Positions 10,443-63,464 of a DNA stretch of 64,000 nt are shown in pieces (the stretch's first letter is position 1; each line of letters opens with the position of its first letter). The notes beneath the pieces are model-generated. The model did no database searches and was not told the DNA's origin. It saw nothing but the letters and a program-made list of their open reading frames with translations. This stretch comes from Lysinibacillus sphaericus (GTDB lineage: Bacteria; Bacillota; Bacilli; Bacillales_A; Planococcaceae), in the NCBI RefSeq assembly GCF_006864135.1, contig NZ_SADV01000012.1:1-64000 (forward strand). Direction: 5' to 3'. The position numbers and the translations under genes were made by a program.

Positions 10443-10664
10443 ATGAAAGAACAGTTAATAAAAGTAATGCAGCGTCAACAAGTAGTTAACATGATTTATG
10501 TAGCTAAGTCTGGTGTCATTACGAAAAGGCGTGTGAAAATCATAAAGATTGTTGGTGATTCTTTTACAGCATTTTGCTTTACGAGGCAGGCAAAACGTAC
10601 GTTTATTATTAACAATGTTCTAGCATTAATGCCCGTTACACATCGAAAGCGTGAGGTGATATGA
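10443..10664 (+). CDS. Small WYL-like protein of SOS locus 1
   Basis: A 73-residue protein, a paralogue of the one at 18868. The segment NMIYVAKSGVITKRRVKIIK, then VGDSFTAFCF and AKRTFIINNVLALMP, follows the WYL beta-barrel pattern (a basic strand, a short turn with GD, then KRTF and a closing hydrophobic strand). This is a family-level inference. The start is ATG 10443 with AAGGAG upstream; the first in-frame start at 10398 lacks a site. Its stop overlaps the ATG of the polymerase fragment (ATGA), so the two were translationally coupled. It is still intact although the downstream polymerase is not. Confidence 0.6.
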   Translation: MKEQLIKVMQRQQVVNMIYVAKSGVITKRRVKIIKIVGDSFTAFCFTRQAKRTFIINNVLALMPVTHRKREVI

Positions 10665-10845
10665 ATTACGACAATTTGCCGCACAAAGACATTTTTTGTA
10701 TTGACATGAAATGCTTTTACGCAAGCTGTATGGCAATGCTAGAAGGTTTAGATGTCTTGAAAGATCCCATTGCAGCTATTGGTAACTTTGAACAGCCCGG
10801 TAGAATCGTGCTCGCAGCCTCGCCGATGATGAAGGGGATTTTTAA
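10661..10845 (+). pseudogene. Y-family DNA polymerase (UvrX/UmuC type), N-terminal fragment
   Basis: The first 61 residues match the intact polymerase at 19094: CIDMKCFYASCMAMLEGLDV with catalytic Asp, then NFEQPGRIVLAASPMMK. Homology stops near 10845 and the frame runs straight into metallophore-dehydrogenase sequence. The palm acidic pair (SVDE), thumb and little-finger domains are absent, so it cannot polymerise. The joint shows a deletion or insertion that fused two unrelated genes. Confidence 0.85.
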
Positions 10846-10861
10846 ATCAAAAAATAGACAT

Positions 10862-12157
10862 TTTAATAAGGTTTTACTGTTAGGAACAGGGCCCACGGTA
10901 ATTCAATTAGCTGTGAATTTCAAGAATTATTATAATGGTAAAGTAGCTATTGTTTGCTGGTCGAGAATCTTTACGTTCCAAAATTTTTTTTGACACTATC
11001 GTTCAGCATCAACTTGCACTTAAGGTATATATACAAAATATACAACATCAGTCTGTTGCAGGAACATGTACTATTGATGCATTTTTTAAAGGTTATCATA
11101 CAATATATGGAAAATTGGATACCGTTGTACTTAGTGTTACTACAGATTCTTATTTATCAGTATTAGCACAAATCGATACCAAAGTGTTGGAGGAGGCTAG
11201 CTGCTTTATATTAATTTCGCCTACATTTGGCTCTAGTCATTTAATAACTAATTTCCTAAAGAATGTATCTCCCCAGGCTGAGGTAATTAGTTTTTCAACA
11301 TATTATGGAGATACTAGATGGTTAAGCGAAATTCCATCAAATGAAGTATTGACGACAGGAGTAAAGAAAACAGTTTATATTGGTTCAACTTACTCAAAAT
11401 CGGATAGATTAGATATATTATCTGAATTGTTTGATTATTTAGGGGTTCATCTGAAAAAAGTAGCATCTCCTCTTGAGGCAGAAACAAGAAATATTTCTTT
11501 ATACGTGCACCCGCCCTTATTTATGAATGATTTTTCATTAAAAGCAATATTTGACGAAAAGAAAATAACAAAGTATGTGTATAAGCTTTATCCTGAAGGT
11601 CCTATTACTTATACTATGATTCGTCATTTATTAAATTATTGGAAAGAAATGATGGCGATTGTAAAACACTTCAATATTCAACCTCTAAATCTCTATTGAA
11701 ATTTATGGTAGATGATAATTATCCATTACAGCCAGAAAGTATAGCCAGACAAGAAATAGAGGATTTTAACAAACTTGAGTCCATACTTCAAGAGTATCTG
11801 CTCTATATTCGCTATGCATCCTTATTAATTGACCCATTTTCTATACCAAATCAAGAAGGACGGTACTTTGATTTTTCTGCAGTTCCTCTTAGAAGGATTT
11901 TTAAAAATCATGATGGGGAATGGGATATTCCTAGAATGCCAAAAGAGGATTACTATCGTGTGAAAATCATTCAAGGGATTGCTAATGCCCTGAAATTGAA
12001 AAGTCCAACACTGGATCATTTTGTACAAACCTATGAAGAAAAGTTACAGCAAGTAGAAGCTTTATCTGAGAACAAAGTATATTCAGAAGCCTTTCGAGTA
12101 AAATCCTTTTCACAAGAAATAGAGATGATATGTAAGGAATTAATAGGTGTTATATAA
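10862..12157 (+). pseudogene. cntM: Opine metallophore dehydrogenase (staphylopine dehydrogenase family), two frameshifts
   Basis: Three frames together give a nearly complete CntM-like enzyme: KVLLLGTGPTVIQLAV (NAD(P)H site), FILISPTFGSSHLI, VISFSTYYGDTRW, LTTGVKKTVYIGSTYS, NISLYVHPPLFMNDFSLKAI, KLYPEGPITYTMI and LLIDPFSIPNQEGRYFDFSA. Such enzymes reduce the imine between an amino-acid-derived diamine or triamine and a 2-oxo acid, making opine metallophores. Frame 1 ends near 10955 (GTTTGCTGGTCGAGAA), frame 2 runs to about 11690, where an extra CT (CTAAATCTCTATTG) shifts to frame 3, ending at 12157. The original start codon was lost in the fusion to the polymerase fragment. No cntK or cntL partner is seen. 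Confidence 0.88.
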
Positions 12158-18867: not shown

Positions 18868-19104
18868 GTGAGAGAGCGACTGATTAAAGCTATGCAGCGC
18901 AATCATTTAGTGAACATGATGTATGTAGTGAAAGATGGTTCCTTAGCAAAAAGGCATGTGAAAATCATTAAAATTGTTGGCGATTTATTTCAAGCATTTT
19001 ATTTTACAAGATGTGCAAGAAGTGCAAAACGTACTTTTTTGATCAGTAATGTTCTAGTCGTTATTCCTTTTGTTAGTAAGGGCGTGAAGTTGTATGAATT
19101 ATGA
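18868..19104 (+). CDS. Small WYL-like protein of the intact SOS operon
   Basis: A 78-residue protein, paralogue of 10443. RNHLVNMMYVVKDGSLAKRH, VKIIKIVGDLFQAFYF and AKRTFLISNVLVVIP follow the WYL/SH3-like barrel pattern: two basic strands, a GD turn, then the RTF strand. Free-standing WYL-sized proteins can bind nucleic acid or ligands, so a regulator or accessory of the polymerase is plausible but inferred. GTG start after GGGGGAAAGC. Its end overlaps the polymerase ATG by 11 bases, which points to translational coupling. Conservation of the pairing in two loci, plus a relic in a third, suggests a linked role. Confidence 0.65.
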   Translation: MRERLIKAMQRNHLVNMMYVVKDGSLAKRHVKIIKIVGDLFQAFYFTRCARSAKRTFLISNVLVVIPFVSKGVKLYEL

Positions 19105-20353
19105 AAGTATGCCCAATAGACCTATTATGTGTATCGATATGAAATGCTTTTACGCCAGTATCGTAGCGATGTTACATGGGCTAGATGTTTTAAAAACTCC
19201 AGTTGCAGTAGTAGCAAATTTTGACCAACCAGGTAGCGTAGTGCTTGCTGCCTCCCCCTTAATGAAAGAAAAATTTAATATCAAAACTGGTAGTCGTCGT
19301 TATGAAATACCTAAACACCCTGACATTAGATTGTTTGAGCCTAAAATGAGTTTCTTTATTCAAATGTCGATGACGATTACAAAATTGATCTCTAATTACG
19401 TACCAGTTGATGCTATACATGTGTATAGTGTGGATGAAAGTTTTGTTGATTTAACCGGCACTGAAAAGCTTTGGGGTTCACCTGAAGAAACGGCTAAGGA
19501 AATACAAAGGGCTATTCTTGACCAATTTAATATACCTAGTGCAGTAGGGATGGGACCCAATATGTTAATAGCTAAATTAGCTTTAGACCTTGAAGCAAAG
19601 AAAACAGGCTTTGCTAAATGGACGTATGAAGATATTCCAAAGAAATTATGGCCAGTTCGACCCCTTTCTGAAATGTGGGGAATCGGTAAACAGATGGAAG
19701 CAAATCTAAATGCTATGGGAATACAAACAGTTGGTGGTTTGGCTAATACAGATCTAAAAGAATTAGAAAAGCGCTTTGGTGTAATGGGCAATCAACTCTA
19801 TTACCATGCATGGGGAATCGATTTATCCAAATTAGGGGAGCCGTTAATAACAAACGGAGCTTTAAGTTTTGGGAAGGGACAAATGCTGATGAGGGATTAT
19901 CACACACGAAAAGAAATCTCTGTAGTGCTCCTAGAAATGTGCGAAGACGTAATGAAACGCACACGTGATGTAGGGTTTGTTGGCCGTACAATCAGCTTAG
20001 GTCTTTCCTACAGTCATAATGCCACGACCAAAGGATTCCATCGATCTAAAACGATTGCAGTACCAACAAGCGAAACACTTGTGATGTATAAAACTTGTCT
20101 TGAATTACTGGATGAACATTTTGCAGGTGAACCAGCTCGGCAGTTATCTGTCCGAATATCCAACTTAGAGAGAGAGCATAGCATTCAATTGGATTTATTT
20201 GATGATCGTAAGCCACAGCGTCAAATAATCGGTCCTACAATGGATGCAATACGCAACAGGTTTGGAGCTACCTCAATATTAAGAGCAGTTTCTTTCACAA
20301 AAGCTGGTACAGCTATTAATCGAGATCGCTTAGTTGGTGGTCATTTGGCATAG
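19094..20353 (+). CDS. uvrX: Y-family translesion DNA polymerase, UvrX type
   Basis: A 419-residue error-prone polymerase similar to UvrX/YqjW of B. subtilis and its phages. Palm: CIDMKCFYAS with first catalytic Asp (about residue 14); HVYSVDESFVDLTG with the second acidic pair (about residues 113-116). Then GIGPN-like AVGMGPNMLIAKLALDLEAK, a helix-hairpin-helix (MWGIGKQMEANLNAMGI) and a little-finger domain ending QLDLFDD. All core residues are present, so it should be active in damage tolerance under LexA. ATG 19094 lies inside the upstream gene's end. A YolD-like gene follows, as in the yqjW-yqjX pair. Confidence 0.88.
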   Translation: MNYESMPNRPIMCIDMKCFYASIVAMLHGLDVLKTPVAVVANFDQPGSVVLAASPLMKEKFNIKTGSRRYEIPKHPDIRLFEPKMSFFIQMSMTITKLISNYVPVDAIHVYSVDESFVDLTGTEKLWGSPEETAKEIQRAILDQFNIPSAVGMGPNMLIAKLALDLEAKKTGFAKWTYEDIPKKLWPVRPLSEMWGIGKQMEANLNAMGIQTVGGLANTDLKELEKRFGVMGNQLYYHAWGIDLSKLGEPLITNGALSFGKGQMLMRDYHTRKEISVVLLEMCEDVMKRTRDVGFVGRTISLGLSYSHNATTKGFHRSKTIAVPTSETLVMYKTCLELLDEHFAGEPARQLSVRISNLEREHSIQLDLFDDRKPQRQIIGPTMDAIRNRFGATSILRAVSFTKAGTAINRDRLVGGHLA

Positions 20354-20366
20354 GAGTGATTTATTT

Positions 20367-20699
20367 ATGATACAAGATAGAGGTAATATTAAATGGGCAT
20401 CGATGATGTTGCCGGAGCATTTGGAGCTTCTTAGAGAGTACAAACAAGAGCGCACAGAACAGCCAAGAGAATTGACTGAGTGGGAACTGGAAGAACTACA
20501 GAATACAATCGATCGAGCTTTTAACCAGCAATTGCACATAAAATTAGAAGAGTGGAAAGACTACAAAATCACACAGTGGACTGGAATAATTAAATCGATG
20601 AATACTAATGAACTCATACTTGAAACACTACTTAAAACGAAAAGTATTCCAATCCAAAGTATTCAATCAGCCCAACTGGACGCTGATTATTATGATTAA
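20367..20699 (+). CDS. YolD-like protein
   Basis: A 110-residue member of the YolD-like family, which almost always sits next to a Y-family polymerase. The diagnostic opening is DRGNIKWASMMLPEHLELLR; a helical region (LTEWELEELQNTIDRAF) and a small barrel (ITQWTGIIKSMN...IPIQSIQSAQLD) follow. It is believed to assist or regulate the polymerase. ATG 20367 has AGGAGTGAT upstream; the in-frame start at 20334 lies inside uvrX without a site. It overlaps the next gene by 8 bases. Confidence 0.85.
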   Translation: MIQDRGNIKWASMMLPEHLELLREYKQERTEQPRELTEWELEELQNTIDRAFNQQLHIKLEEWKDYKITQWTGIIKSMNTNELILETLLKTKSIPIQSIQSAQLDADYYD

Positions 20700-49356: not shown

Positions 49357-49650
49357 TTGTTCTATTCTATATGTGATTATGATTTGGTAGATTGCCAAAT
49401 AGATTTGAATGGACAAATGATACCTGTACATTATGTTAAGAATCACGGATATAGCCCAATGGATTTTGTTATTCTAGATGACCAAAATTATGATGAGTTA
49501 ACTGAACCAGATTCCTTTATTACACTGCTTCCAATGGCTAATAAATTTGATTATAAAGATAAAGAAGAAGTAGAGGGAATTTTTGGCACAATTAAGAAAG
49601 CTTATCCAGATAGCAAAGACAAAGTGAATTTTGTAGACATACAAGATTGA
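49357..49650 (+). CDS. Hypothetical fragment before the ABC operon
   Basis: A 97-residue frame without ribosome site, directly downstream of relics in the same frame, so probably the 3' end of a broken gene. ICDYDLVDCQIDLNGQMIPV, YVKNHGYSPMDFVILDDQNY and EVEGIFGTIKKAYPDSKDKV suggest an extracellular alpha/beta domain such as occurs in FtsX/MacB-type permeases, but I cannot confirm it. Confidence 0.35.
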   Translation: MFYSICDYDLVDCQIDLNGQMIPVHYVKNHGYSPMDFVILDDQNYDELTEPDSFITLLPMANKFDYKDKEEVEGIFGTIKKAYPDSKDKVNFVDIQD

Positions 49651-49676
49651 GTTTTAATGAAAAGAGGTTGGTTTAT

Positions 49677-50384
49677 ATGGAAGTTGTACGTATGGAGAAT
49701 ATAGTGAAAAGTTATGGGGAAGGCAATAACAGGGTAGATGCATTAAAAGGAATTGATCTTTCTATTCAGCAAGGCGAGTTTGTCTCAATCGTCGGTGCTT
49801 CTGGTTCTGGAAAAAGTACACTGCTACATATTTTAGGTGGATTGGATCGCCCTAGTTCTGGGAAGGTATTCATTGGGGATAATGATATTTATAAATATTC
49901 AGATAATGAACTTTCAGTATTCAGAAGAAGAAAAGTTGGGTTCATTTTTCAATTCTTTAATTTGATACCAGTATTAAATGTCCAAGAAAATATTGCTTTA
50001 CCTACGTTATTAGATAGTGAATCTATAGATAGGGAGTATTTAAATGAAATTATTAATATCCTGGGGCTTCAAGACCGTAAGGATCACTTACCTTCCGAAC
50101 TATCTGGAGGGCAACAGCAACGGGTTTCAATCGGCAGGGCGCTTATTAATCGTCCGCATTTGATACTTGCTGATGAGCCTACTGGTAATCTAGATACTCG
50201 AAATACGAAAGAAGTTATGGATTTATTAAGACTCACGGCGAAAAAATACAATCAGACCATTGTAATGATTACTCATGATCTAAATATTTCATCGGCTTCT
50301 GATCGGATCATCACAATACAAGACGGCGAAATCATTTCAGATAAACGGCTAGCTACAAAAGAATCAAAGGCTGGGGATGAATGA
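49677..50384 (+). CDS. ABC transporter ATPase (MacB/BceA type)
   Basis: A 235-residue ATPase. [20 protein letters not shown] (Walker A), [20 protein letters not shown] (Q-loop), [20 protein letters not shown] (signature), [15 protein letters not shown] (Walker B and D-loop) and [16 protein letters not shown] (H-loop) are intact. This kind energises FtsX-type permeases that expel or sense peptides and antibiotics. ATG 49677 with AGAGGTTG upstream is preferred over 49647 without a site. The permease gene starts inside the stop (ATGA), and a response regulator and kinase follow, a typical detoxification module. Confidence 0.88.
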
Positions 50385-52360
50385 ATTTGATCAACAGTTA
50401 TAAACAATTAGGTAGCAGGTATTTAAAGGGGAATATGAAAAGAACGATTTTGACCGTAATTGGAATCGTACTTTCCGTAGCGTTAATTTCAACTATTGGT
50501 CTGTATATGAAAGGATCTCAACTCTCTCTAATTGAGAACATTAAGAAATTAAACGGTGTTTCTTTTCATGTTGGTATTTCAGATTACGATGAAGAGATAT
50601 TAAATAAAATCAGATATAATCCCCAAATTGAATCGTTTGGTTTAATGTCTGAAGGGGACATCTTTCCACTTGGAGAGGTTTCTGTGCAAATGAATTTCGC
50701 GGATCATCACGCTTTAAACTTTCTAACCTACAGTCTACTGGATGGAAAATTACCAACCAATGCTCATGAGGCAGCTATCGATTCCTGGTTAATTCCTTCT
50801 ATAAAAAAAGATCTTCAATTAGGTGATTCATTTGAACTGGATGGAAAAACATATCAACTGGTAGGTTTACTGAAAAATAATGATTCTACACAGAAAGATA
50901 AAATGGGGCGATTATTAACGTATAAAAGTGAGTTTGCTATTGGAGAGGGAAGAATATTAATAGAAATTAACCAGAAAGCAGACTTAAACGAGGTTTTAGA
51001 CGAATTAAACTCAATTACTGAAGACAATAACATTGCTATTAATACTGATTTGATTCGAGCTTTGAAACCGGAATCGGATCAATCGATTTTGGCTATTCTA
51101 GTAGTTGTAATTAGCATTGTTGTAATTATGACAATTGTTGTTATTTACAACACTTTTCAAATCAGTGTCGTAGAACGAATGAAGCAGTTCGGATTGTTGA
51201 GAAGTATCGGTGCTACACGAAAACAAATTCGACAAATTGTTATGAAAGAAGCTTTTGTGTTAGCTATCATAGCCATACCAATCGGCATTATATGCAGCTT
51301 ATTGGCACTAGCTATTCTCCAAACCATTTTCTTGATTTTATTAGAAGATGGTCCAGATGTATTCAATATCGATTGGCAGATATTATTGATTAGTTCGATT
51401 ATTACGCTGATAGCCGTATTAGTATCCAGTTATTACCCTGCTTTTTTTGCAAGCAGAATATCACCATTGTTGGCAATTAGCAGTAGATTGTCAATAAAAA
51501 AAGAGAGAATCAAAAAACAAAATAATAAGGTGCTAAGAAAACCTTTTTCATTCCCATTAAGTATGGCCATTAAAAATGTAAAAAGAAATAAAAATCGTTA
51601 TGTCGTTACTATTTTATCAATCATTATAAGTAGTGTATTGTTTATTACTTTTTCAACTTTAATGAACATCGCATTAACATCCAAACTTGTGAACGATCCG
51701 TCCGAATCGGATCTTACAATCTATCTACAAGAAGAAAATAATGTTTCTTCTAAGAATCCGGAAGTTTTAGATCATTTAAAGTTGATTAAAAATGTATCCG
51801 AGGTTTCCGAACAAGACTTAATTTTTAAAATTGAATTGAAGGATACAACTCAATCCCTAGCGACTGTTGAAGACATCCAGAAGACTATTGGAAAAAAACA
51901 CTCCATTATAGTGGTCAATAACTTTGAAGAGAATAAAGCCAAAAATGAAGATGTTCTCATCATCAAAGTTCTTGTCTATGCTTTTATTGTGGTCATTTCT
52001 TTAATCGGTAGTTTAAATATCTTCAATACGATTACTATAAGCATCTTGGTTAGGCGAAAAGAACTGGCTGCACTAAAATCCATAGGTATGTCCCAAAAGG
52101 ATTTGAAAAAAATGATTACATATGAAGCACTGATTTACGGTTTTTCTGGAAGCTTGCAAGGTATATTTTTCGGTTGTATACTTTCATATATTATTACGTA
52201 TAATGCTACTTCCGGTTTCTTGAAAGCAGAATGGTCGATTCCTTATATTGCTTGTTTTATTACGTTTGTTGCAGCTTTATTAATCAGTTATTTATCTGTT
52301 CTGCTACCGCTGAGAAGAATCCGACAGGATAATATTATAAATACGATAAGAGAAGCATAA
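50381..52360 (+). CDS. FtsX-family ABC permease
   Basis: A 659-residue permease with an N-terminal membrane helix (residues about 22-44), a roughly 190-residue extracellular domain, and two FtsX blocks (about 230-370 and 500-655), giving around eight helices. YNTFQISVVERMKQFGLLRS, IGATRKQIRQIVMKEAFVLA and the second copy NTITISILVRRKELAALKSI, GMSQKDLKKMITYEALIYGF are the coupling-helix motifs. It is coupled translationally to the ATPase. A weak hairpin (52367-52393) separates it from the response regulator. Confidence 0.85.
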   Translation: MNLINSYKQLGSRYLKGNMKRTILTVIGIVLSVALISTIGLYMKGSQLSLIENIKKLNGVSFHVGISDYDEEILNKIRYNPQIESFGLMSEGDIFPLGEVSVQMNFADHHALNFLTYSLLDGKLPTNAHEAAIDSWLIPSIKKDLQLGDSFELDGKTYQLVGLLKNNDSTQKDKMGRLLTYKSEFAIGEGRILIEINQKADLNEVLDELNSITEDNNIAINTDLIRALKPESDQSILAILVVVISIVVIMTIVVIYNTFQISVVERMKQFGLLRSIGATRKQIRQIVMKEAFVLAIIAIPIGIICSLLALAILQTIFLILLEDGPDVFNIDWQILLISSIITLIAVLVSSYYPAFFASRISPLLAISSRLSIKKERIKKQNNKVLRKPFSFPLSMAIKNVKRNKNRYVVTILSIIISSVLFITFSTLMNIALTSKLVNDPSESDLTIYLQEENNVSSKNPEVLDHLKLIKNVSEVSEQDLIFKIELKDTTQSLATVEDIQKTIGKKHSIIVVNNFEENKAKNEDVLIIKVLVYAFIVVISLIGSLNIFNTITISILVRRKELAALKSIGMSQKDLKKMITYEALIYGFSGSLQGIFFGCILSYIITYNATSGFLKAEWSIPYIACFITFVAALLISYLSVLLPLRRIRQDNIINTIREA

Positions 52361-52366
52361 TACCAA

Positions 52367-52393
52367 AGGCCTGGCTATTGATATAGTCAGGCT
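52367..52393 (+). terminator. Weak hairpin between permease and response regulator
   Basis: AGGCCTGGCTAT pairs with ATAGTCAGGCTA using G-T pairs. No real T tract follows, so it probably only lowers read-through or protects the upstream mRNA end. Confidence 0.35.
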
Positions 52394-52447
52394 ATTCTGA
52401 TTTGATGGTAACTGCTAATATAGAGTGAGAGGAAGGAGAAGATATAC

Positions 52448-53146
52448 TTGAATAAAATATTACTTGTAGAAGACGATGAAGCTCTCGGTCTAGCCATTGA
52501 ATTTTCATTAAGAAATGAAGATTATGAGGTGATTAGAGCTACTAGTGTAAAAGAAGCGAAAAGCCAATTTAATGATAATATTTTTGACTTGGCTATCTTA
52601 GATATCAACCTTCCGGATGGAAATGGTTATGACTTATGTTTGCACTTCAAAAAACAAAATCATGCAACAGCTATTATATTCTTAACAGCTTTGGATGAAG
52701 AGGCAAATGTAGTAATGGGACTAGATATTGGCGGAGACGATTATATAACAAAGCCTTTTCGGGTTAGAGAACTTATGTCGAGAGTAAAAGTACAATTACG
52801 TAAACAAGCTAGATTGGAAGAAGTTTCAATGATTTTAATATCTGAAAATATAAAGGTGGATATGAACCAAGTAAAGGTCTATAAAAATCAAGGTATTGTT
52901 CCATTAACAACCTTAGAATATAAGCTTTTGTTAACTTTTATGAAAAACGCTCACAAACTATTAGAAAGAGATGAAATCCTACTGAAAATAACAGAAGAAG
53001 ATGATGTTTTTTTTGGTGAAAATACGTTATCTGTATACATAATGCGTTTAAGAGAAAAAATTGAAGATGACCCCAAAAATCCACAGTTTATCATTACTAA
53101 AAGAGGATTAGGATATCATTGGGATAAGGATGTGAACCGAGAATAG
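52448..53146 (+). CDS. OmpR-family response regulator
   Basis: A 232-residue regulator. The receiver domain has LLVEDDEALGLAIEFSLRNE (acidic pair), LAILDINLPDGNGYDLCLHF (phospho-Asp about 52), FLTALDEE (Thr) and DDYITKPFRVRELMSRVKVQ (Lys). The winged helix follows (VPLTTLEYKLLLTFMKNAHK; NTLSVYIMRLREKIEDDPKN; FIITKRGLGYHW). It likely controls the ABC operon just upstream. TTG start after GGAAGGAGAA. The kinase gene begins directly after its stop. Confidence 0.88.
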   Translation: MNKILLVEDDEALGLAIEFSLRNEDYEVIRATSVKEAKSQFNDNIFDLAILDINLPDGNGYDLCLHFKKQNHATAIIFLTALDEEANVVMGLDIGGDDYITKPFRVRELMSRVKVQLRKQARLEEVSMILISENIKVDMNQVKVYKNQGIVPLTTLEYKLLLTFMKNAHKLLERDEILLKITEEDDVFFGENTLSVYIMRLREKIEDDPKNPQFIITKRGLGYHWDKDVNRE

Positions 53147-54385
53147 ATGATGAAAAATACCGAATTGAAAGGTTATATGATAATACTGGTGGTTTTATTT
53201 TCTCTATTTATCGTTTATCAGTTAATTTCACATCAAATATTTTACAATCATTTAAAAACAGATTCTATTACAGCTTGGGGAGAAATTACCGCTAAATTGA
53301 TTGAACAAAATCCGGAGAATGAAGCAGAAATTATGAAAGTCTTTACAAGTAATTCTTCTGATTCAAGTAAGTATCAGGAGAAAGGGAGAGAAATCTTTAG
53401 GCAGTATGGATTATACGAAGATTTGGAGACGAAACTTTTTCCACTTTTAAATAACCATATTTCTAGCTTTAATCAAACAATACTTTTGGGAATGATTTGT
53501 TTCGGATTAATACTGTTTCTGGCAAACTATATACAATACAAGATTATTTTCAATAAAATTAAGCAACTTACATCAACTGCTAAGAAAATAATTGATGGAG
53601 ATTACTCGGTTACAATAAATGAAAATAAAGAAGGAGAAATCGCCAAATTAGCTGTTTCATTCCGCTCCATGAAAGACATCATTAGAAAAAATATGAAGGA
53701 TTTACTTGTAGAGAAGGAATTTTTAGGACGAATGTTGCAAGACATATCCCATCAATTAAAAACGCCACTTTCAACTATATCAATCTATAATGAAATGTTA
53801 TTGATTGAAGACTTGCCCCGTCAGAAACAAGTTCAATTATTGCAAAATAATGAAATTCAAATCTCCAGAATGAATGTTTTAATTCAAAACTTGTTAAAAG
53901 TAGCGAAAATTGATGCCAAAGCAATTTCATTTAATAAAGAACCGTTAAACTTGGTGAATACTATTAAAGAAGTTTTGAATCGTTTGGAAAATATAATTAA
54001 TGAAAGGGATTTGTCAATTGACTGGGACGGTACGGAGGAAGTAGTGATTATCCACGATAAATTATGGATGCAAGAAGCTTTGATGAACTTGCTAAAAAAT
54101 GCGATTGAGCATTCTAAACCTGGTGAGAAAATCACACTTCAAGTCATGGATACACCGATTTATACAGAGCTCGTAATTCAAGATTTTGGAGAAGGGATTG
54201 CTGCTGAAGACTTACCACATATTTTTAATCGATTCTACAAAGCAAGCACTTCTAAAAAACATGATTCTACAGGGATTGGCTTGGCTTTAACAAAAGCGAT
54301 TATTGAAGCTCATCAAGCTTTGATTAAAGTTGAAAGTGTGAAAAATGCTTATACAAAGTTTACAATTACCTTTATAAAATTTTAA
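53147..54385 (+). CDS. Sensor histidine kinase
   Basis: A 412-residue kinase. Two membrane helices (about residues 9-25 and 112-130) flank an extracytoplasmic part of about 85 residues. A HAMP segment (KQLTSTAKKIIDGDYSVTIN) follows, then HisKA with phospho-His in DISHQLKTPLSTISIYNEML and the ATPase domain: MNLLKNAIEHSKPGEKI (N box), QDFGEGIAAEDLPHIFNRFY (G1/F) and TGIGLALTKAIIEAH (G2). The extracellular domain is larger than in BceS-type kinases, so it may sense its ligand directly. ATG 53147 follows the regulator stop without spacing. Confidence 0.87.
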   Translation: MMKNTELKGYMIILVVLFSLFIVYQLISHQIFYNHLKTDSITAWGEITAKLIEQNPENEAEIMKVFTSNSSDSSKYQEKGREIFRQYGLYEDLETKLFPLLNNHISSFNQTILLGMICFGLILFLANYIQYKIIFNKIKQLTSTAKKIIDGDYSVTINENKEGEIAKLAVSFRSMKDIIRKNMKDLLVEKEFLGRMLQDISHQLKTPLSTISIYNEMLLIEDLPRQKQVQLLQNNEIQISRMNVLIQNLLKVAKIDAKAISFNKEPLNLVNTIKEVLNRLENIINERDLSIDWDGTEEVVIIHDKLWMQEALMNLLKNAIEHSKPGEKITLQVMDTPIYTELVIQDFGEGIAAEDLPHIFNRFYKASTSKKHDSTGIGLALTKAIIEAHQALIKVESVKNAYTKFTITFIKF

Positions 54386-54488
54386 AATGTTTTATATCTG
54401 AATCAGTTTTTAAGGTTGTAGTCGATCCGTGCAAAAACCATACAAAGTTTTCTACATGATTATACATTGTGACTTTACATAACAGAAA

Positions 54489-54533
54489 GGCAGTAGTAAC
54501 AAGGAACAAGTCCTTGTTACTACTGCCTTTTTT
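54489..54533 (+). terminator. Strong terminator of the ABC/two-component block
   Basis: GGCAGTAGTAACAAGG pairs perfectly with CCTTGTTACTACTGCC (16 bp), followed by TTTTTT. Confidence 0.92.
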
Positions 54534-55697
54534 ATGAATATTATTGATAATTCAAATCTTCCAACCTATCCGTTTAGTTTTTAGAAGAAATCTAAGAGTT
54601 GCTGAGAAATAATTAGGTTGAGTGGATTCTATTATCGTTATAACTTAGTAAGATAATATTTCAAATTGTAAGAGAACAGTTATTCATTTAAACAAAGAAA
54701 ATTTATATCTTTAAAATGAAACAATTGGACAAAAGCGAGGTAAATAATAGGACTTTTGAAGAAAAATTACAAGCATATCAGAACTTTTGGTATAAGTCGA
54801 TTTGCATCTTCAACTACTGAGTATAAGCTAAGAGGGGGTATAGAAAAGAACACAATATAAAAAATTAGGTAGAGAGAAGGACCTGCTGAAATACTTTAGT
54901 TGATAATCGAATGTACAGTTCAAAGAATATTTGAAAAGGAAGGAGAAGTTTTATAGGGATAATTTGTCATATTCATTCCAAAAATATACTGGTTTTTTAT
55001 GTTATTATAACTAATGATTGCTATCGAGATGTTGTGTCAAGCAATTGGAATTTATGTCCTTAACCCATCCTAGCTTTATAAAAGATGAGCAATTACCTCG
55101 CTTATTTGGTAAAATTTGACAATTTGTTATACCTGTCATATACTATTGCCATGCTTTGCGATATATAAATATAAAACTTTGTACAGGTAATAAAATTTGA
55201 TGTAGGAAAAGTTTACATTCGAGATTAGCTCAGTTTTAGTTGACGTTGGGTGGTTGCCATAGTTGATAAAGAGGATGCTTAAGGTTATTCATTAACACAG
55301 CAAGTACATAATGGATTTTTTAAAATCTACACTGTAACCGTTATTGCGTCGTTTACAAACTCGAACTAGGGGTTTGTGTAGTAACGGAACAAAAAAGCAA
55401 TATAACTCCATACCTCTTATATTTTATTTCCCTTTAATTTTTAGTAACAGTCCAAAATCTTTCAACTCCCTCTAGTAAGTGAAATGAATATCCTTTCCAT
55501 AATACTTATAAGTGCATGTCCTACTGGAGTGAGTTCTTTGTTTGATCACCTGTATTATTATAAGGGTCAAGCCACGACTAATTCCACAACTGAAGCGTAG
55601 CGAAATGCGTTAGTAATCTTTAGTAAACATATTCCTCTCTTCTCACATTCAAGAGTTTCTATACACATTTATATAAGCAAAACTATACATTTTAAAA
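54534..55697. other. Gene-free 1.1-kb region before the NRPS
   Basis: No credible gene. I see a large stem-loop (CCGTTA at 55338 with TAACGG at 55382 and an inner ACAAAC/GTTTGT stem) and many stops in all frames. A reverse-strand stretch near 55490-55560 reads NKELTPVGHALISI, faintly like the end of a LysR protein, too short to call. It may be the remains of a neighbour gene of the NRPS. Confidence 0.4.
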
Positions 55698-55726
55698 TAT
55701 TATCATTGTGTATTCTATTGATAATA
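55698..55726 (+). promoter_or_regulatory. Inverted repeat directly upstream of the NRPS
   Basis: TATTATCA and TGATAATA are exact 8-bp arms 13 bases apart, ending 4 bases before the AGGAGG site. It could be an operator or an mRNA hairpin that masks the ribosome site. The half-site resembles part of a Fur box, but the spacing does not fit. Confidence 0.4.
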
Positions 55727-55741
55727 ATTAGGAGGATCAGT

Positions 55742-58700
55742 ATGAACCGATTTGTTAAAGTAGAAAATGCCCAGTTGATAACTGAGGCTCAATACGATGT
55801 AACAGAAAATCAGAAAGTATTATGGTTGGCACGTCAAATGGACATAGAAGCGGGCATTTATAATGAACCCGTATCTATACAAATAAAAGGAGACTTAGAT
55901 CATAAAAAATTACAAAAGGCCTTGCAATATGTTGTAGCGAAACACGTAGCGTTACAAATGAATATTGTATCTACGAATAACGGTCTGAAGCAATTAAGGA
56001 AAGAACAATTTCATGTAAACATGGATTTTTATGATTGGTCTTCCTATCCTAGCGCCATAAGAGATCAGATGTTGGACAAATCTTTGAAATTAAATCTTCA
56101 CACAAGATTTGATCTAACCTCAGATGCTTTGTTTCGGTTTCAACTGTATCAGTTGGAACCAAATGAATATCTCCTTCACATGATGTTTCATCATATTATT
56201 TATGATGGATGGAGTTTAGGATTATTCTTGCAAGATTTAGAACAGGCCTATTCATTAGATCTAACTTTTGAAATAGAAAAGAACAATCATAGACTACATA
56301 TGTATGAAAAACTTTTACATAAACATCAAAATTATATTGGAACAGAGGATTATGTTACTTCAGAAAAATATTGGAGTATAAAATTAGAAGGTACCTTACC
56401 GTGGAGTGAATTTCCAACAAGTTGCGCAAAGTCACCTGTACCAACATATCAAGGAGGAGCTTTACAATATGCAATAAAGCCTTCTTTATCTAACCTTATA
56501 AAACAATTTTCAAAGGAAAAGCAAGTTAGCTCATACCGTGTATGGCTAAGCATCTATGTTGTTTTATTACATCAAATGACAAATCAGACAGACTTGGTAG
56601 TTGGAATGCCAATTAACACGAGAAGCAGTGACGAAGAAGCGCGAGAGGTATTTGGCTACTTTGTGAATACAGTCCCACTACGTATAGCATTTTCACCGAC
56701 CGAGACTTTTACAGAGTTAGTTCAAAAAGTGAATGACTCAGTAAAAGAGGCTATTGCACATGGAGATTATCCATTGAACCATTTGATTCAGCAAGTTAAG
56801 AATCGAGAAGAAAATAACACGTCTTTATATTCAACAGTATTCAACATGGTGAAACTTCCGAATTTCAGAATGGAAGACTTAGAAACGAAAGTCATTACAC
56901 ATCAAAATCGAATAAGTGTGTTTAATATGGTATGGCGATTAGTTCAAAACCAAAGTGATGCTTTAAATATTGAAATTGATTATAACGCAGGTATATATGA
57001 TGAAAACGACATACAGAACTTTATAGATAGATTTCAACATTTACTACAGGCATTGATAGAAAACAGTGACAAACCTATATCCAATCTAGAGTTGCTTTTA
57101 CCACAGGATATTGATGTTTATCAAAACACATTGGCTGTGAAAAATGTGCCGCCTATGACATTAGATCAACTCATTGATGAACAAGCGGATATACACCCAG
57201 ATCGTATTGCTATAACGATGGGTCAACAAAATATCACTTATCAAGAGTTACGGGTCTTGTCAAACCAAGTGGCACAAACTTTATTGCGCCAAGGATTTCA
57301 AAAACAAAACCGTGTAAGTATCATCATGAATCGTAGTATAGAAGCCGTTGTTTCAATGATTGGAGTATTAAAGGCAGGAGGTACCTATGTACCTGTGGAG
57401 CCAGATTTTCCTGTAGACCGGGTTCGTTTTATATTACAGGATAGTGAGTCAACTCATATTATTACAAGTCATAAGTTCAGTTTACAACATATTCAACTAG
57501 ATCAAAAAGTTATTTTATATGAAGACATGTCTAAACAGTCCATTATTGAGCAAGCGAAACGAACACATGCAACGGAAGATGCCGCCTATATCATTTATAC
57601 ATCTGGTTCTACTGGAAATCCTAAAGGTGTATTGATTCCTCATAAGGGAGTAATTCACTTTATACAATCCTTAAAAGATACGTATCATTTTCAGAAAAAT
57701 CACGTACATCTGCAATTTGCATCACTTATCTTTGATGCATCCGTCTGGGAAATCTATAGTAGTTTGTTAACTGGTGGGAGGCTTTATATTTTATCGGAAA
57801 TAGAAAGAAAATCTTTCAACCACTTTATCGAGGCTATTGAGAAGCAACAAGTAAATTTTTGTCTTTTACCTACTGTATTTTTCCATACCTTAACGCAAGC
57901 GTCTCTGCATGAATTAGAAAAATTAAAATCACTAAACTATATATTTGTTGGTGGAGAGACATTGCTACCAGAAACAGTAAGAAAATGGCAAGAAAAAGTA
58001 GATTTAAAAATTCCGATTGTAAATGCATATGGTCCAACAGAATCGACAGTCTGTGTCGCCACATATCCGATTATCAACAAGGTAAATGAAACACAAGTAA
58101 ATATACCAATTGGGAAACAGTTATCTCATACAGAAATCTATATTTTGAACGAACAGCATCAAATTTGTCCACCGTACGTACCTGGAGAGATTTATATTGG
58201 TGGGAATAGCCTTGCGCAGAAATATGTCAATCAACCTGATAAAACAAAAGAATCATTTATAACTGTAAATTTACCAACTTCGTCTAAGGCAAGACTATAT
58301 AAAAGTGGTGATCAAGGTCTTATCACACAAGATGGACAAGTTGAATTTTTAGGACGTATAGATAAGCAGGTGAAGATTCGTGGATATCGTATCGAGTTAG
58401 AAGAAATCGAAGAACAAATGCTCCGACACCCATCTATTCAACATTCATCTGTGATAGTTTATCAGAATAAAAAAGGCGATCAGCAATTGATTGCTTTCTA
58501 CATATTGCAAAAAGAGGCTATTGTGGCTGCTGATGATATTCAAGCATACCTTTCAGAAAAGTTACCTTATTTTATGCTACCGAATTACATGCAAGATGTT
58601 GAGGCGTTTCCTTTAACACCGAGCGGCAAGATAGATTATAACTCATTACAAAAGCAAGCAGAGTCTGTATTAGAAAACCGTACTCAAAGATATATTCCAC

Positions 58701-61700
58701 CCAATACAAATACTGAAATACAATTACAAAATATCTGGGCAGAAGTTTTACGGATGAATTCTGAACAGATAAGTATCGAAGATGATTTTTTCACGATTGG
58801 TGGACATTCTTTACTCACAGTCCAAGTCATTAATCGTATTCATGCCAGACTCCGTGTACAGATAAGTTTAAAAGACTTATATGTATATCGAACGATTCAT
58901 ACATGTGCTGATTATATAGACCGATTAAATCCTATAGATATTGAAGACGTAATTCCACAAATTCCTGAACAAACGTATTACCCGTTATCCCATGCACAAA
59001 AAAGACTTTGGTTTTTATACAAAAGGTATCCAAAAGATCGAACATATGATATCCCTATCCAGGTACAAATACAGCCCGGTATACAAATCAAAATGTTGAA
59101 CAAAGCTTTATATGAAGTTGTAAAACGACATGAAATTTTTCGAACGGTTTTCATGGAAAAGCAAGGGGAGCCTGTGCAACACATACGAGAAGAAATAGAC
59201 GCGATAGCTACACACGTGGATATTACCAAAATTAAAAAGAGTAAACAAGCAGCATATAGGTTGAAGTGTATACGGGAGATTGATTCTAAAGAGTTTAATT
59301 TAGAACAGGGTCCATTATTCCGAACGATACTATTCACAGAGAGTGAAGATTGCTCTTGGTTATATTTGAATTTCCATCATATTATTATGGATGAATGGAG
59401 TTTACAACGTTTTCTAAAGGAGCTATTGGAGGTATATGATGAAATATTACTAAATAAAATTGTGCATGCTACCAAACCTACTGTTAGATATGTTGATTAT
59501 GTCGCATGGCAATATGAACATCTTTCGTTAGGAACGTGGGAAATAGAAAAAAAATATTGGAGACAAGAGTTCCAAAACGTTCTACCTCAATTATCACTAC
59601 CATACGATCGAATGCGTCCTAGTACTCCTTCAAATCATGGTGCGGTGCTTTCTAAGAAAATAGACCAGATAAATTTGGCAGGATTAAAAAAACTTGCACA
59701 ACAAGAGGAAGTTTCACTATTCATACTGCTATTCACTGCTTACACGCAATTTTTACAGCAGATATGTGGGCAGAATGACCTCATTGTAGGAACACCTGTG
59801 ACAGGGAGACAACATACAGCATTTGAAGATGTACAAGGTTTCTTTGTCAACACAGTTGCAATTCGAGTAGATACAACAGATGCAGCTACAATGAAAGAAT
59901 TGTGTGAAGTTGTAAAAGAGAAATGTCTTTTGGCATTCCAACATCAAAACTATCCATTTGATAAGGTAATTGAAGCAGTAAACCCTGAACGAAGAGCACA
60001 TGATAATCCAATTTTCCAAACTATGTTTAGTTATCAACAGTACTCAGCTCAACAACATAACTTGCATCGATTGGATATACAACCTGTAGAACAAGCAATT
60101 AGTAAATTTGACTTATCTCTTACATTTGTGGAGGAAGATGATGGTCTAATTATGGATTTAGAATATAATACTGATTTGTTTGAAAGAACAACGATTTCAC
60201 GTTTTGCAGAACAACTATTGCAAACTATCCAGATGATACAAACAGATTTTACTACATCTCTTTGTCAATTAAATATATTGAGTGATACAGATAAATCTAT
60301 GTATCAAAAATTGAATGATACGTATATGGCGATACCACAACATTCATCAATACAGGAACGTTTTTATCGGCAAGTGTATAAAAGACCCGATGCGATCGCA
60401 ATTTCTACGGAGGATAGGTTATATACTTATGAAGAGGTGAATCATTATTCTAATCAAATTGCTCATTATTTGATTGAAAAAGGAATTCAGCTCAATGATG
60501 TAGTTGCCATTTTCTTAGACCGAAGTTTAGAAAGTATTGTATGTATGTTGGGGGTTCTCAAAGCTGGCGGTACCTATGTGCCTATTGATATTAAATATCC
60601 GCCAGAACGTGTATCGTATATTTTAAATGACAGTAAGGCAAAGCTAATTCTAACGAAAAATTCTCTAAAAAAAGAATCACTATCTCATTATGAACAAGTA
60701 GCTGTAATAGAAGATATGTTAGCATCGTCTGCGATTCAAGACATCTTAAACAAAAATACAGCGGAAGACACAGCTTATATGATCTACACATCTGGATCGA
60801 CGGGAAATCCGAAAGGTACATTACTCCGACATGCTGGCGTACTGAATTTAGTGGAATGGCGCTCACAAACATTCCATATAACAGAGCAAGATGTGTTATC
60901 TCAGTTTTACTCTCACAGTTTTGATTCGTCTGTTTCGGAAATTTTTTCAGCTTTATTAACTGGAGCAAGACTTCATTTGTTAAATGAGGAACAACGTTAC
61001 TCTTCACAGGCATATTTCGATGCAGTTTCTACTTATAACATTACGATTTCAGACGTGGCAACAGCCTTTTTTAAACAATTAGCAAATGGAGTTTCTTCAA
61101 AACAGCTCATTCCATTAAAAAGTTTACGTGTGCTAATTATGGGAGGAGAAGCTGCATCTGCAGAGGCTATTCGAATATGGCAATCTGAAATGAGTGATAC
61201 TGTACAGATTGTCAATGAATATGGACCTACGGAAACAACAGTTAGTTCGTTGTATCACTCTGTTTCTACAAAAGTGGATAGTACAGTTACCCAGATTCCT
61301 ATTGGGAAGCCTATTGCTAATACAAAAGTCTATATCTTAAACGAAAACATGCAGCTGTGTCCAATAGGTGTAATAGGAGAACTGTACATTGAGAGTGTAG
61401 GAACAGCAATCGGGTATGTAAATCAGCCAGATAGAACCAAACAATCATTTTTATCTAACCCGTTTTCTAAAGAAAATCATTCTATTTTATATCGGACAGG
61501 AGATCTAGTACGCCTAGAATCAAATGGAAGTGTAGAATATATGGGTAGACGTGATAGACAAGTGAAAATAAGAGGATATCGTATTGAACTAGGAGAAATT
61601 GAAGATGTACTTGTGCAAGAGCCTCGCATTCAACAAGCGGTGGTTCTACCTGATGCAGAAGGAAAAGAATTACACGCATATTTCACTGTTCATAATCAAA

Positions 61701-63346
61701 CAGAAATAAGTATTGAAGAAACCTATAAGCATGTTTCCGCTACTTTACCGGAATATATGGTACCAAAAGGATATGTTTGTGTACACGAGATTCCTGTCAC
61801 ACAAAATGGCAAAATAGATGTTCAAAAACTACTAGGACAGTATCAAATACAGTACCGGAAAAATAGAAATCATCAACCACCTGTTACAGAAACACAAAAG
61901 GTACTAGCTAATGTTTGGGCAGAAGTATTAAACATAAAAGACTTAAACATAAAAGATGATTTTTTTGCTCTTGGGGGGCACTCATTAAAAATTATGCCTA
62001 CTTTGGTGAAACTAAAACCATACTTCCCTAACTTGCGTATACAGGATTTCTTTCACTATCGTACAATAGAAAAACTGGCGCGAAAAATAGATACAGCGCT
62101 TCAACAAGAAAACAGTATAGGAGCAACGGTGGGAGAGTATAAAAAAGAAAATAATATTCATATAGATAAGCAAGAAAACAATACGAAATGGGATACATTA
62201 ATACATGCTTCACAACAGAAACCTCGTTGTATACTATTAACAGGCGGAACAGGTTTTCTTGGTTCCCATATCTTAGAGCAGTTATTATTACTACCTGATA
62301 CAGTGATTTATTGCCTAGTTCGGAATCAAAAACAAACTTCAATGGAAAACAAAGTACGAGAAAAAATGCAGTTTTACTTTGGCGAGGTTATATTAGAAAA
62401 AATGAAGCATCGCGTTCATATTATTGAAGGAGATTTGAGCAAAGAACATCTAGGCCTTACACCAAATATAAAAAAACAATTGATTCAAGAAATAGATACG
62501 ATCATACATTGTGGAGGAGATGTGCGTCATTATGGAGACAGAGAACATTTTATCCAAGTCAATGTGGAATCTACTAAATACTTATTAGACATGAGTAAAG
62601 AAGCACGTGCACGTTTTCATTATATTTCAACAATTAGCATTTCTGGACATGCCCCTCATGATGCTAAAGAGTTTTTGTTCTCTGAACAAGACTTTGACAG
62701 AGGACAGCAGTTAGAAAATGTATATGTGGAAAGTAAATTTTTGGCAGAAAAATTAGTGAGAGAAGCAATAAAAGAAGGCGTCCCAGCAACAGTGTATCGT
62801 GTAGGAAACCTAGTAGGGCAAACACTTGATGGGAGGTTTCAAGAGAATATAGAAGGTAATGCTTTTTATCGTTTGATAAAAGCTATCTTATTACTACAAA
62901 TTGCACCGAACATTCATACGTATATTGATCTAGTACCTATCGATTTTGGTAGTAAAGCTATTGTACAATTGGTATGTACAAAGGAAACGGGAGGGGAAAC
63001 TTTCCACATTTGTAATCCTGTTCAACTGGAATGGAAACCGTTTGTTGAATATTTGAAACAGAGCGGTCATCCTATTAAAATTGTAAATACTGAACAGTTT
63101 ATGAACTTATTTAAAGACGATTCATTGTCTGATAAACAAAAATATGCTTTGGAATTAATGGTGCCTTTACTAGAAGAAACAGCTGAAAATTCTTTATCAA
63201 TCCCAACGTGTCAATATACTCAACGTTTTTTACAAGAAGTTGATGTGGTATGCGAATTACCTAATGCAAAGTTTGTATCTAATTTGATAGATTATGGATC
63301 TCGATTAGGTTTTTTCCCCGCTAGCAGAGAATATACTACGGTTTAA
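55742..63346 (+). CDS. Dimodular NRPS with terminal reductase (C-A-T-C-A-T-R)
   Basis: A 2534-residue nonribosomal peptide synthetase. Order: condensation C1 (HHIIYDGWS, His about 150); adenylation A1 (YTSGSTGNPKG about 618, FDASVWE about 664, NAYGPTE about 763); carrier T1 (GGHSLL, Ser 1023); C2 (HHIIMDEWS, His 1212-1213, with Glu 1218 instead of Gly); A2 (YTSGSTGNPKG about 1682, FDSSVSE, NEYGPTE about 1827); carrier T2 (GGHSLK, Ser 2081); thioester reductase (LTGGTGFLGSHILEQL about 2165, ISTISISGH, YVESK about 2327). My read of the pocket residues is D-A-W-L-I-V-A-V-C-K for A1 (close to Phe/aromatic) and D-S-S-D-I-G-E-V-S-K for A2 (two acidic residues, so perhaps a basic amino acid). With an initial C domain and reductive release, an N-acyl dipeptide aldehyde is expected. 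AGGAGGATC precedes ATG 55742. Confidence 0.9.
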   Translation: MNRFVKVENAQLITEAQYDVTENQKVLWLARQMDIEAGIYNEPVSIQIKGDLDHKKLQKALQYVVAKHVALQMNIVSTNNGLKQLRKEQFHVNMDFYDWSSYPSAIRDQMLDKSLKLNLHTRFDLTSDALFRFQLYQLEPNEYLLHMMFHHIIYDGWSLGLFLQDLEQAYSLDLTFEIEKNNHRLHMYEKLLHKHQNYIGTEDYVTSEKYWSIKLEGTLPWSEFPTSCAKSPVPTYQGGALQYAIKPSLSNLIKQFSKEKQVSSYRVWLSIYVVLLHQMTNQTDLVVGMPINTRSSDEEAREVFGYFVNTVPLRIAFSPTETFTELVQKVNDSVKEAIAHGDYPLNHLIQQVKNREENNTSLYSTVFNMVKLPNFRMEDLETKVITHQNRISVFNMVWRLVQNQSDALNIEIDYNAGIYDENDIQNFIDRFQHLLQALIENSDKPISNLELLLPQDIDVYQNTLAVKNVPPMTLDQLIDEQADIHPDRIAITMGQQNITYQELRVLSNQVAQTLLRQGFQKQNRVSIIMNRSIEAVVSMIGVLKAGGTYVPVEPDFPVDRVRFILQDSESTHIITSHKFSLQHIQLDQKVILYEDMSKQSIIEQAKRTHATEDAAYIIYTSGSTGNPKGVLIPHKGVIHFIQSLKDTYHFQKNHVHLQFASLIFDASVWEIYSSLLTGGRLYILSEIERKSFNHFIEAIEKQQVNFCLLPTVFFHTLTQASLHELEKLKSLNYIFVGGETLLPETVRKWQEKVDLKIPIVNAYGPTESTVCVATYPIINKVNETQVNIPIGKQLSHTEIYILNEQHQICPPYVPGEIYIGGNSLAQKYVNQPDKTKESFITVNLPTSSKARLYKSGDQGLITQDGQVEFLGRIDKQVKIRGYRIELEEIEEQMLRHPSIQHSSVIVYQNKKGDQQLIAFYILQKEAIVAADDIQAYLSEKLPYFMLPNYMQDVEAFPLTPSGKIDYNSLQKQAESVLENRTQRYIPPNTNTEIQLQNIWAEVLRMNSEQISIEDDFFTIGGHSLLTVQVINRIHARLRVQISLKDLYVYRTIHTCADYIDRLNPIDIEDVIPQIPEQTYYPLSHAQKRLWFLYKRYPKDRTYDIPIQVQIQPGIQIKMLNKALYEVVKRHEIFRTVFMEKQGEPVQHIREEIDAIATHVDITKIKKSKQAAYRLKCIREIDSKEFNLEQGPLFRTILFTESEDCSWLYLNFHHIIMDEWSLQRFLKELLEVYDEILLNKIVHATKPTVRYVDYVAWQYEHLSLGTWEIEKKYWRQEFQNVLPQLSLPYDRMRPSTPSNHGAVLSKKIDQINLAGLKKLAQQEEVSLFILLFTAYTQFLQQICGQNDLIVGTPVTGRQHTAFEDVQGFFVNTVAIRVDTTDAATMKELCEVVKEKCLLAFQHQNYPFDKVIEAVNPERRAHDNPIFQTMFSYQQYSAQQHNLHRLDIQPVEQAISKFDLSLTFVEEDDGLIMDLEYNTDLFERTTISRFAEQLLQTIQMIQTDFTTSLCQLNILSDTDKSMYQKLNDTYMAIPQHSSIQERFYRQVYKRPDAIAISTEDRLYTYEEVNHYSNQIAHYLIEKGIQLNDVVAIFLDRSLESIVCMLGVLKAGGTYVPIDIKYPPERVSYILNDSKAKLILTKNSLKKESLSHYEQVAVIEDMLASSAIQDILNKNTAEDTAYMIYTSGSTGNPKGTLLRHAGVLNLVEWRSQTFHITEQDVLSQFYSHSFDSSVSEIFSALLTGARLHLLNEEQRYSSQAYFDAVSTYNITISDVATAFFKQLANGVSSKQLIPLKSLRVLIMGGEAASAEAIRIWQSEMSDTVQIVNEYGPTETTVSSLYHSVSTKVDSTVTQIPIGKPIANTKVYILNENMQLCPIGVIGELYIESVGTAIGYVNQPDRTKQSFLSNPFSKENHSILYRTGDLVRLESNGSVEYMGRRDRQVKIRGYRIELGEIEDVLVQEPRIQQAVVLPDAEGKELHAYFTVHNQTEISIEETYKHVSATLPEYMVPKGYVCVHEIPVTQNGKIDVQKLLGQYQIQYRKNRNHQPPVTETQKVLANVWAEVLNIKDLNIKDDFFALGGHSLKIMPTLVKLKPYFPNLRIQDFFHYRTIEKLARKIDTALQQENSIGATVGEYKKENNIHIDKQENNTKWDTLIHASQQKPRCILLTGGTGFLGSHILEQLLLLPDTVIYCLVRNQKQTSMENKVREKMQFYFGEVILEKMKHRVHIIEGDLSKEHLGLTPNIKKQLIQEIDTIIHCGGDVRHYGDREHFIQVNVESTKYLLDMSKEARARFHYISTISISGHAPHDAKEFLFSEQDFDRGQQLENVYVESKFLAEKLVREAIKEGVPATVYRVGNLVGQTLDGRFQENIEGNAFYRLIKAILLLQIAPNIHTYIDLVPIDFGSKAIVQLVCTKETGGETFHICNPVQLEWKPFVEYLKQSGHPIKIVNTEQFMNLFKDDSLSDKQKYALELMVPLLEETAENSLSIPTCQYTQRFLQEVDVVCELPNAKFVSNLIDYGSRLGFFPASREYTTV

Positions 63347-63435
63347 ATGAGAATTAAAATGTGGTATACACATGATAAACTGAATGATTATTCGCCGTGG
63401 AAAAAGGGAAGCCTTAATCTGAAGAAGCATTTTGA

Positions 63436-63464
63436 AGAGCAAACGAAAGTTTGCTCTTTTTTTT
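63436..63464 (+). terminator. Strong terminator after the NRPS
   Basis: AGAGCAAAC and GTTTGCTCT around GAAA, then eight T. It lies about 90 bases after the NRPS stop, so the NRPS is a single-gene transcript. Confidence 0.9.

Follow-up and report, generated by a model that had tools for sequence, protein, structure and literature searches.

A single gene of Lysinibacillus sphaericus encodes a 2534-amino-acid nonribosomal peptide synthetase (NRPS) which, to judge from its sequence, is probably a self-contained maker of an N-acyl-(Leu/Phe)-(basic)-aldehyde of the protease-inhibitor type, with Arg as the most likely basic residue. We infer the acyl cap, both residues, an aldehyde in preference to an alcohol, and the inhibition of proteases. 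The gene lies in the window, by which we mean the whole stretch of 64,000 nucleotides that was analyzed (contig NZ_SADV01000012.1, positions 1 to 64,000), and is one open reading frame (ORF) with an ATG start codon and no internal stop (Table 1).

Pfam places two Condensation, two AMP-binding, two AMP-binding_C, two PP-binding and one NAD_binding_4 match on the protein, all five families scoring far above their cut-offs; the NAD_binding_4 match is of the thioester-reductase type. The domain borders come from domain models built in this analysis out of the eight family members together with AusA_G268, G606, G505 and G584, which score high for the reason that the models were made from them. Pfam and models alike bear out the order C-A-T-C-A-T-R on one protein that the original prediction had claimed. 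The protein thus has the layout of the N-acyl dipeptide aldehyde synthetases: two modules, an N-terminal C domain and a C-terminal R domain on one chain.

Table 1. Positions in the window of the NRPS gene, its domains and its flanking signals
Feature	Position	Strand	Residues	Basis or remark
NRPS gene, C-A-T-C-A-T-R	55742..63346	+		ORF list, translation, Pfam, domain models
C1, HHIIYDG intact, proposed acyl-accepting condensation domain	55787..57106	+	16-455	
A1, code DAWLFGAVC, predicted for a large hydrophobic residue	57173..58648	+	478-969	
T1, carrier domain, GGHSL	58715..58921	+	992-1060	
C2, HHIIMDE	58967..60289	+	1076-1516	
A2, code DSSDIGEVS, predicted for a basic residue	60362..61831	+	1541-2030	
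T2, carrier domain, GGHSL	61895..62092	+	2052-2117	
R, thioester reductase, TGGTGFLG and YVESK	62219..63298	+	2160-2519	
Ribosome binding site AGGAGG	55730..55735	+		kept in 4/4 aligned Lysinibacillus upstream regions
Promoter-like TTGACA-17-TATACT	55116..55144	+		about 600 nt 5' of the start codon
Terminator-like hairpin	63434..63459	+		3' of the NRPS gene

Both hexamers of the promoter-like site are kept in the three aligned sequences (window, OT4b.31 and G035), and the DNA homology to strain 2362 stops short of it; promoter-like sites are no commoner in the stretch than in shuffled sequence, at 41 against an expected 45.6. The gene had been predicted to end with a terminator, and a terminator-like hairpin does follow it, such sites numbering 7 in the stretch where shuffles give an expected 4.2. 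Aligned with the other Lysinibacillus carriers, the window DNA is homologous as far as 63370, 63415 or 63433, which is short of this hairpin. Upstream of the gene, the search for known regulatory RNAs returned sub-threshold matches only. The genome has candidate phosphopantetheinyl transferases: there are four PF01648 matches, and frames of 230-259 aa account for three. Elsewhere in the window we noted a purine riboswitch (504-603) followed by an ORF (868-2067) that looks transporter-like, by eye of MFS type, two Bacillaceae-1 RNAs (2250-2316 on the + strand, 8639-8705 on the - strand), and a sequence like staphylopine dehydrogenase (PF10100) that extends over three overlapping frames (10661-12157); judged by eye, the first frame has a uvrX-like beginning.

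Three other Lysinibacillus genomes have the NRPS layout intact, at 92.0, 92.4 and 81.8% identity, named relatives being L. sphaericus OT4b.31 (92%) and 2362 (82%). It is kept as well in a 47% ortholog in another genus (G260) and in orthologs from three Brevibacillaceae genomes (about 44% over about 2520 residues). One of these last is B. laterosporus LMG 15441 (G393; 44.0% over 2521 aligned residues), whose family carries the gene in 3 of 39 genomes. Within the family of the window genome, full-length matches occur in 5 of 261 genomes (the window genome, OT4b.31 (G054), G035, 2362 (G042) and G260), a count that may be too low, as one or two candidate places were scored per genome both here and in the search for AusA-type proteins. 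Two wider draws of 398 genomes each scored three candidate places per genome, and may likewise have missed members: the best T2-R match beyond the known members is 42% in the class-wide draw, and the phylum-wide draw yielded no further ortholog among the 7 genomes matching at E <= 1e-70. The closest plasmid relatives (39% over A2-T2-R, 29% over C1) pointed to no helpful named product type. Whole-gene dN/dS is 0.11-0.26 in four pairs, indicating purifying selection, with C1 the least constrained large domain in all four (0.135-0.44). At the level of sequence a chance origin of the layout is excluded, because it is intact across Lysinibacillus, another genus and Brevibacillaceae, and because dN/dS is this low.

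C1, which nothing precedes on the protein, has its HHxxxDG motif kept in all eight family members. A quick tree, built from 94 C domains with no bootstrap, gives the family C1 a clade of its own (eight members, SH-aLRT 100). This clade is outside the LCL, DCL and E groups, and apart from the only two lipo-starter references in the tree, SrfAA C1 and a polymyxin-type (Pmx) C1. The phylogeny had been named as a test in the original prediction, and C1 falls in this quick tree away from internal LCL domains. The tree took 94 of 106 extracted domains, omitting those of L014, L015, L028, L135 and L144, and only stretches longer than 361 residues had entered the 106; the labels SrfAA, SrfAB, SrfAC and PmxE on the reference proteins are assumed by us, in line with codes and layout. 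The nearest neighbor of the C1 clade (support 90) is the C domain of the R-ended protein L159, in which Pfam finds two AMP-binding, two PP-binding, one Condensation and one NAD_binding_4 match; since a carrier directly precedes that C domain, it does not stand at the protein start. L159 itself has 2231 aa, with a weak first AMP-binding region followed by carrier, C, A, T and R. C2 branches as the sister of the LCL group (support 81), and its motif reads HHxxxDE in all eight members, the Gly of HHxxxDG being replaced by Glu. A separate 1484-aa protein of the window genome (L018 6509-, contig C11) has the layout C-A-T-C: its first C belongs with the lipo-starter references, its last C falls among epimerization domains and its A code is DLTKIGEVG, which we take to be of Asn type. 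It is perhaps the first module of a lipopeptide.

With the GrsA code positions placed by motif, as we assume, the A1 codes read DAWLFGAVC in the window, DAMLFGAVC in G260 and DAWVFGAVC in Brevibacillus. These sequences fit a large hydrophobic substrate, Leu or Phe; the Leu, Phe, Orn, Dab and Asn specificities given to codes here are those that we assume from general knowledge. A1 had been predicted to look aromatic. The large hydrophobic character stands, and the window code suits Leu as well as Phe.

The four Lysinibacillus proteins and G260 have the A2 code DSSDIGEVS; the three Brevibacillus proteins have DTSDMGEVS. The two acidic residues seen earlier in this pocket are at positions 278 and 322, and both are kept in all eight members, down to 44% identity. 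Among 95 distinct codes, drawn from 238 A-domain rows of which some are repeated between two alignments, an acid occurs at 278 in 11 and at 322 in 4; only the two family codes have both. According to the available text of PMC12283262, 37 Arg domains cluster on Asp235, Ala/Val236, Glu239, Asp278, Ile/Val/Leu299 and Gly301, and also on Ala322, Val/Ile330, Thr/Asp331 and Lys517. A2 agrees with these residues at 235, 278, 299, 301 and 330 (Met299 in the Brevibacillus code) and differs in Ser at 236, 239 and 331 and in Glu at 322; the second acid would seem to have shifted from 239 to 322. The acids and the published Arg positions together favor the basic-residue pocket of the original prediction, and the substrate is predicted to be basic, most likely Arg. 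Arg is most likely rather than proven because the His code DSALIAEVW also has S236 and E322; E322 is found in DLTKIGEVG too. A literature search returned no occurrence of the exact code DSSDIGEVS.

It is somewhat unlikely, on these data, that A2 takes His, Lys or Orn in place of Arg, in which case a Lys or Orn aldehyde would exist partly as a cyclic carbinolamine. The resemblance of S236 and E322 to the His code speaks for such a substrate, as does the acid at 278 in DVGEIGSID and DVGEISSID, presumably Orn- and Dab-type codes, but five positions of the published Arg cluster match (PMC12283262) and the described products of one carrier species are, in the source text available, of argininal type. 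Stand-alone A-T-R proteins were considered as the source of the A2 specificity and rejected, as their codes differ (DPTTSGVVL and similar). These proteins of about 1050 aa, with DPTTSGVVL and variants of it, are exemplified by L032 in Lysinibacillus and by L030 and L034 in other genera of the family; in L030 and L032 the ORF after the gene is a phosphopantetheinyl transferase by Pfam. At least 21 of the 32 Lysinibacillus genomes have frames of this size, and no such frame is among the 5 R-type matches of the window genome.

The R domain is intact, with its Rossmann and YxxxK motifs present. A tree built from 24 R domains joins the family in a single clade (100/99). The AusA type lies elsewhere, as does the R domain of a 2500-aa B. 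laterosporus NRPS, which we take to be that of bogorol; identity to the latter is 30-32%, and to the R ortholog of B. laterosporus 53%. Bogorol has a valinol end. By sequence, the nearest solved R domain is MxaA, which gives an alcohol-type product, and AusA is third. An acyl dipeptide alcohol is conceivable because MxaA is the nearest solved R; the domain would then perform two reductions, as for C-terminal amino alcohols. We regard this as distinctly unlikely, for the R domain of the presumed valinol-forming bogorol NRPS belongs to another clade, and B. laterosporus, which carries the 53% R ortholog, makes bacithrocins that the available literature text describes as argininal-type. An aldehyde end is the reading that we prefer.

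The best NCBIfam match of the protein is aureusi_NRPS (NF047350), at 1675.9 bits against a cut-off of 2500, and membership among aureusimine synthetases is rejected on this score. AusA shares with the window NRPS the A-T-C-A-T-R core on a single protein. It differs in its R clade and in its A codes, which are DAFWLGGTF or DAFLIGATI for the first domain and DAWSVGAVI or DAMSVGAVI for the second, versus DAWLFGAVC and DSSDIGEVS. Three proteins above the AusA cut-off, from genomes that are presumably staphylococcal, have a C-like region before A1 that is devoid of HHxxxDG, and in the one run through Pfam a single Condensation stretch appears. The window C1, with its HHIIYDG, would by its sequence not belong to this presumably inactive kind. 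Phevalin and aureusimine synthetases had been described in the original prediction as devoid of a first C domain; this holds for an active C, because the C-like region has no HHxxxDG, but not for the region as such, which is present. Were C1 inactive or dispensable, the free dipeptide aldehyde would close to a dihydropyrazinone or pyrazinone, as it does with aureusimine synthetase. The common core, the best NCBIfam match (though below its cut-off) and the C-like start of the AusA-type proteins lend this some plausibility; yet the motif is present in C1 of all eight members and absent from the three AusA-type proteins, C1 is under purifying selection, and the R domains fall in different clades, so that we consider a pyrazinone decidedly improbable and an acylated aldehyde the better reading.

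The gene also stands alone. Around it, the eight carriers present six unrelated neighborhoods. Comparison of ORF proteins gives one common neighborhood for the three Brevibacillus genomes, with 16 matched ORF pairs each, and between the six neighborhoods only weak superfamily matches of 24-34% identity (ABC ATPase, dehydrogenase and acetyltransferase-like, named by eye). When 48-83 kb of the window contig were compared as DNA with each carrier locus, homology to the other three Lysinibacillus carriers came in pieces at 55101-63415, 55111-63433 or 55718-63370, that is, the gene plus at most its leader and end; one extra piece is weak and 112 bases long (54944-55054). The absence of a partner gene common to the carriers' neighborhoods agrees with the single-gene assembly line predicted at the outset. 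An ABC transporter with a two-component system (49647-54385) was rejected as a resistance partner. Of 32 Lysinibacillus genomes, 4 have a match to its kinase at E <= 1e-120, and 3 of these are not among the NRPS carriers found; at that threshold the kinase was not found in the other three Lysinibacillus carriers; because the distribution of the kinase differs from that of the carriers, the system is not tied to the NRPS. Repeats of the window contig (C3) around the NRPS region (54402-54814 versus 68726-69096, 71762-72872 and 79890-80271) are 73-95% alike, and paralogous ORFs at about 69 and 72.7 kb start at or close to some of them. That another NRPS or PKS of the genome feeds C1, making the gene part of a larger line, is formally possible because further NRPS genes are present (contigs C6, C11 and C33), but it is highly improbable in view of six neighborhoods with nothing in common beyond weak superfamily matches and of the place of C1 outside the LCL and DCL groups.

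For the proposed acyl dipeptide aldehyde, assembly would begin with A1 loading Leu or Phe on T1, to which C1 would join an acyl group from a putative acyl-CoA or acyl carrier donor. A2 would load the basic residue, most likely Arg, on T2; C2 would pass the acyl-aminoacyl unit to it, and R would reduce the thioester with NAD(P)H and release the aldehyde. With its acyl cap the molecule would be less prone to the ring closure by which free dipeptide aldehydes become pyrazinones, so the aldehyde would stay free to trap proteases of the trypsin-like or papain-like kind at their catalytic Ser or Cys. Such a product would be of the acetyl-Leu-argininal, thiolstatin or bacithrocin type, bacithrocins being acyl-Phe-argininals.

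As a kind of compound, acyl dipeptide aldehydes are already known. In the available portions of the sources, acetyl-Leu-argininal is made by bacterium BMG 520-YF2 (PMC9101112), bacithrocins are argininal-type thrombin inhibitors from B. laterosporus (PMC10548850, PMC4553477), and thiolstatin is ascribed to Bacillus cereus by the title of a cited paper and to B. laterosporus by the citing text (PMC10548850). The predicted product resembles the bacithrocins, thiolstatin and acetyl-L-leucyl-L-argininal in acyl cap, one hydrophobic residue and argininal. The original prediction held the product to be probably undescribed; this is weakened, because such argininals have been described (PMC10548850, PMC9101112, in the text available) and the bacithrocin-making species carries an ortholog. 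The available text of the literature searched names no gene for bacithrocin or thiolstatin. On the grounds of species and predicted product only, we regard the ortholog in LMG 15441, a strain of the producing species, as a candidate bacithrocin synthetase.

Other routes to related compounds differ from the one proposed here. By their published description, the gut synthetases BGC0001686 (N-octanoyl-Met-Phe-H) and ruminopeptin (N-acyl-Leu-Glu aldehyde) also make acyl dipeptide aldehydes by NRPS (PMC8518294, PMC12327764, available text), whereas the second residue predicted for the window product is basic. Livipeptin of S. lividans and leupeptin are described in the accessible sources as acyl-Leu-argininal type products, like the one predicted, but livipeptin is built by several genes (a C-minus A-T-R protein with a tRNA-using enzyme and an acyltransferase) and leupeptin by the leup operon, versus one gene here. 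The Leu-Arg pyrazinone of Klebsiella and Photorhabdus derives from leupeptin, and for its Leu-Lys analog proteolytic cleavage, cyclization and oxidation are proposed (PMC11480411, available text).

The setting of the gene in strain 2362 connects it with a mobile element. The 2362 ortholog (82%) adjoins an HTH_7 helix-turn-helix ORF and an LPMO_10 gene, beyond which come a YolD ORF and a polymerase gene of the uvrX type. In the available text of PMC13239906, the attR end of IME8 carries orf14 (NRPS), orf15, reg16 and lpmo17, and yolD-uvrX is given as the target; 2362 appears in the list of IME8 carriers, and orf14 is named gramicidin S synthetase. From this gene order it appears that the 2362 ortholog is orf14; the likeness is in the genes around it, the difference in the published name. 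Gramicidin S synthetase ends in a TE domain and has the GrsA/GrsB module content, whereas the 2362 protein has two modules and a terminal R domain, which does not fit that identity. Because of these two modules and the R end, we propose on sequence grounds that orf14 is a peptide aldehyde synthetase instead. The window copy is outside the IME8 setting, about 35 kb from a uvrX-yolD pair; that pair is intact (19094-20699).

We suggest tentatively, and with less than even confidence, that one mobile acyl-Leu/Phe-Arg-aldehyde gene is common to insect-associated spore-formers: it would be orf14 of IME8, where genes for insecticidal toxins accompany it, and it would also be the missing bacithrocin synthetase of B. 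laterosporus, a pathogen of invertebrates, with an inhibitor that acts on proteases met or made by these bacteria. Possible targets would be larval gut trypsins or the bacteria's own toxin-degrading proteases. If true, these assignments would give candidate genes for protease inhibitors described in 1984-1994, for which no gene was found in the literature searched, and a one-gene route to argininal-type inhibitors. They would also put right the naming of an accessory gene in the mosquito-toxin element of a mosquito-control bacterium, and would pose a testable question: why a protease-inhibitor synthetase is found on a mosquitocidal island.
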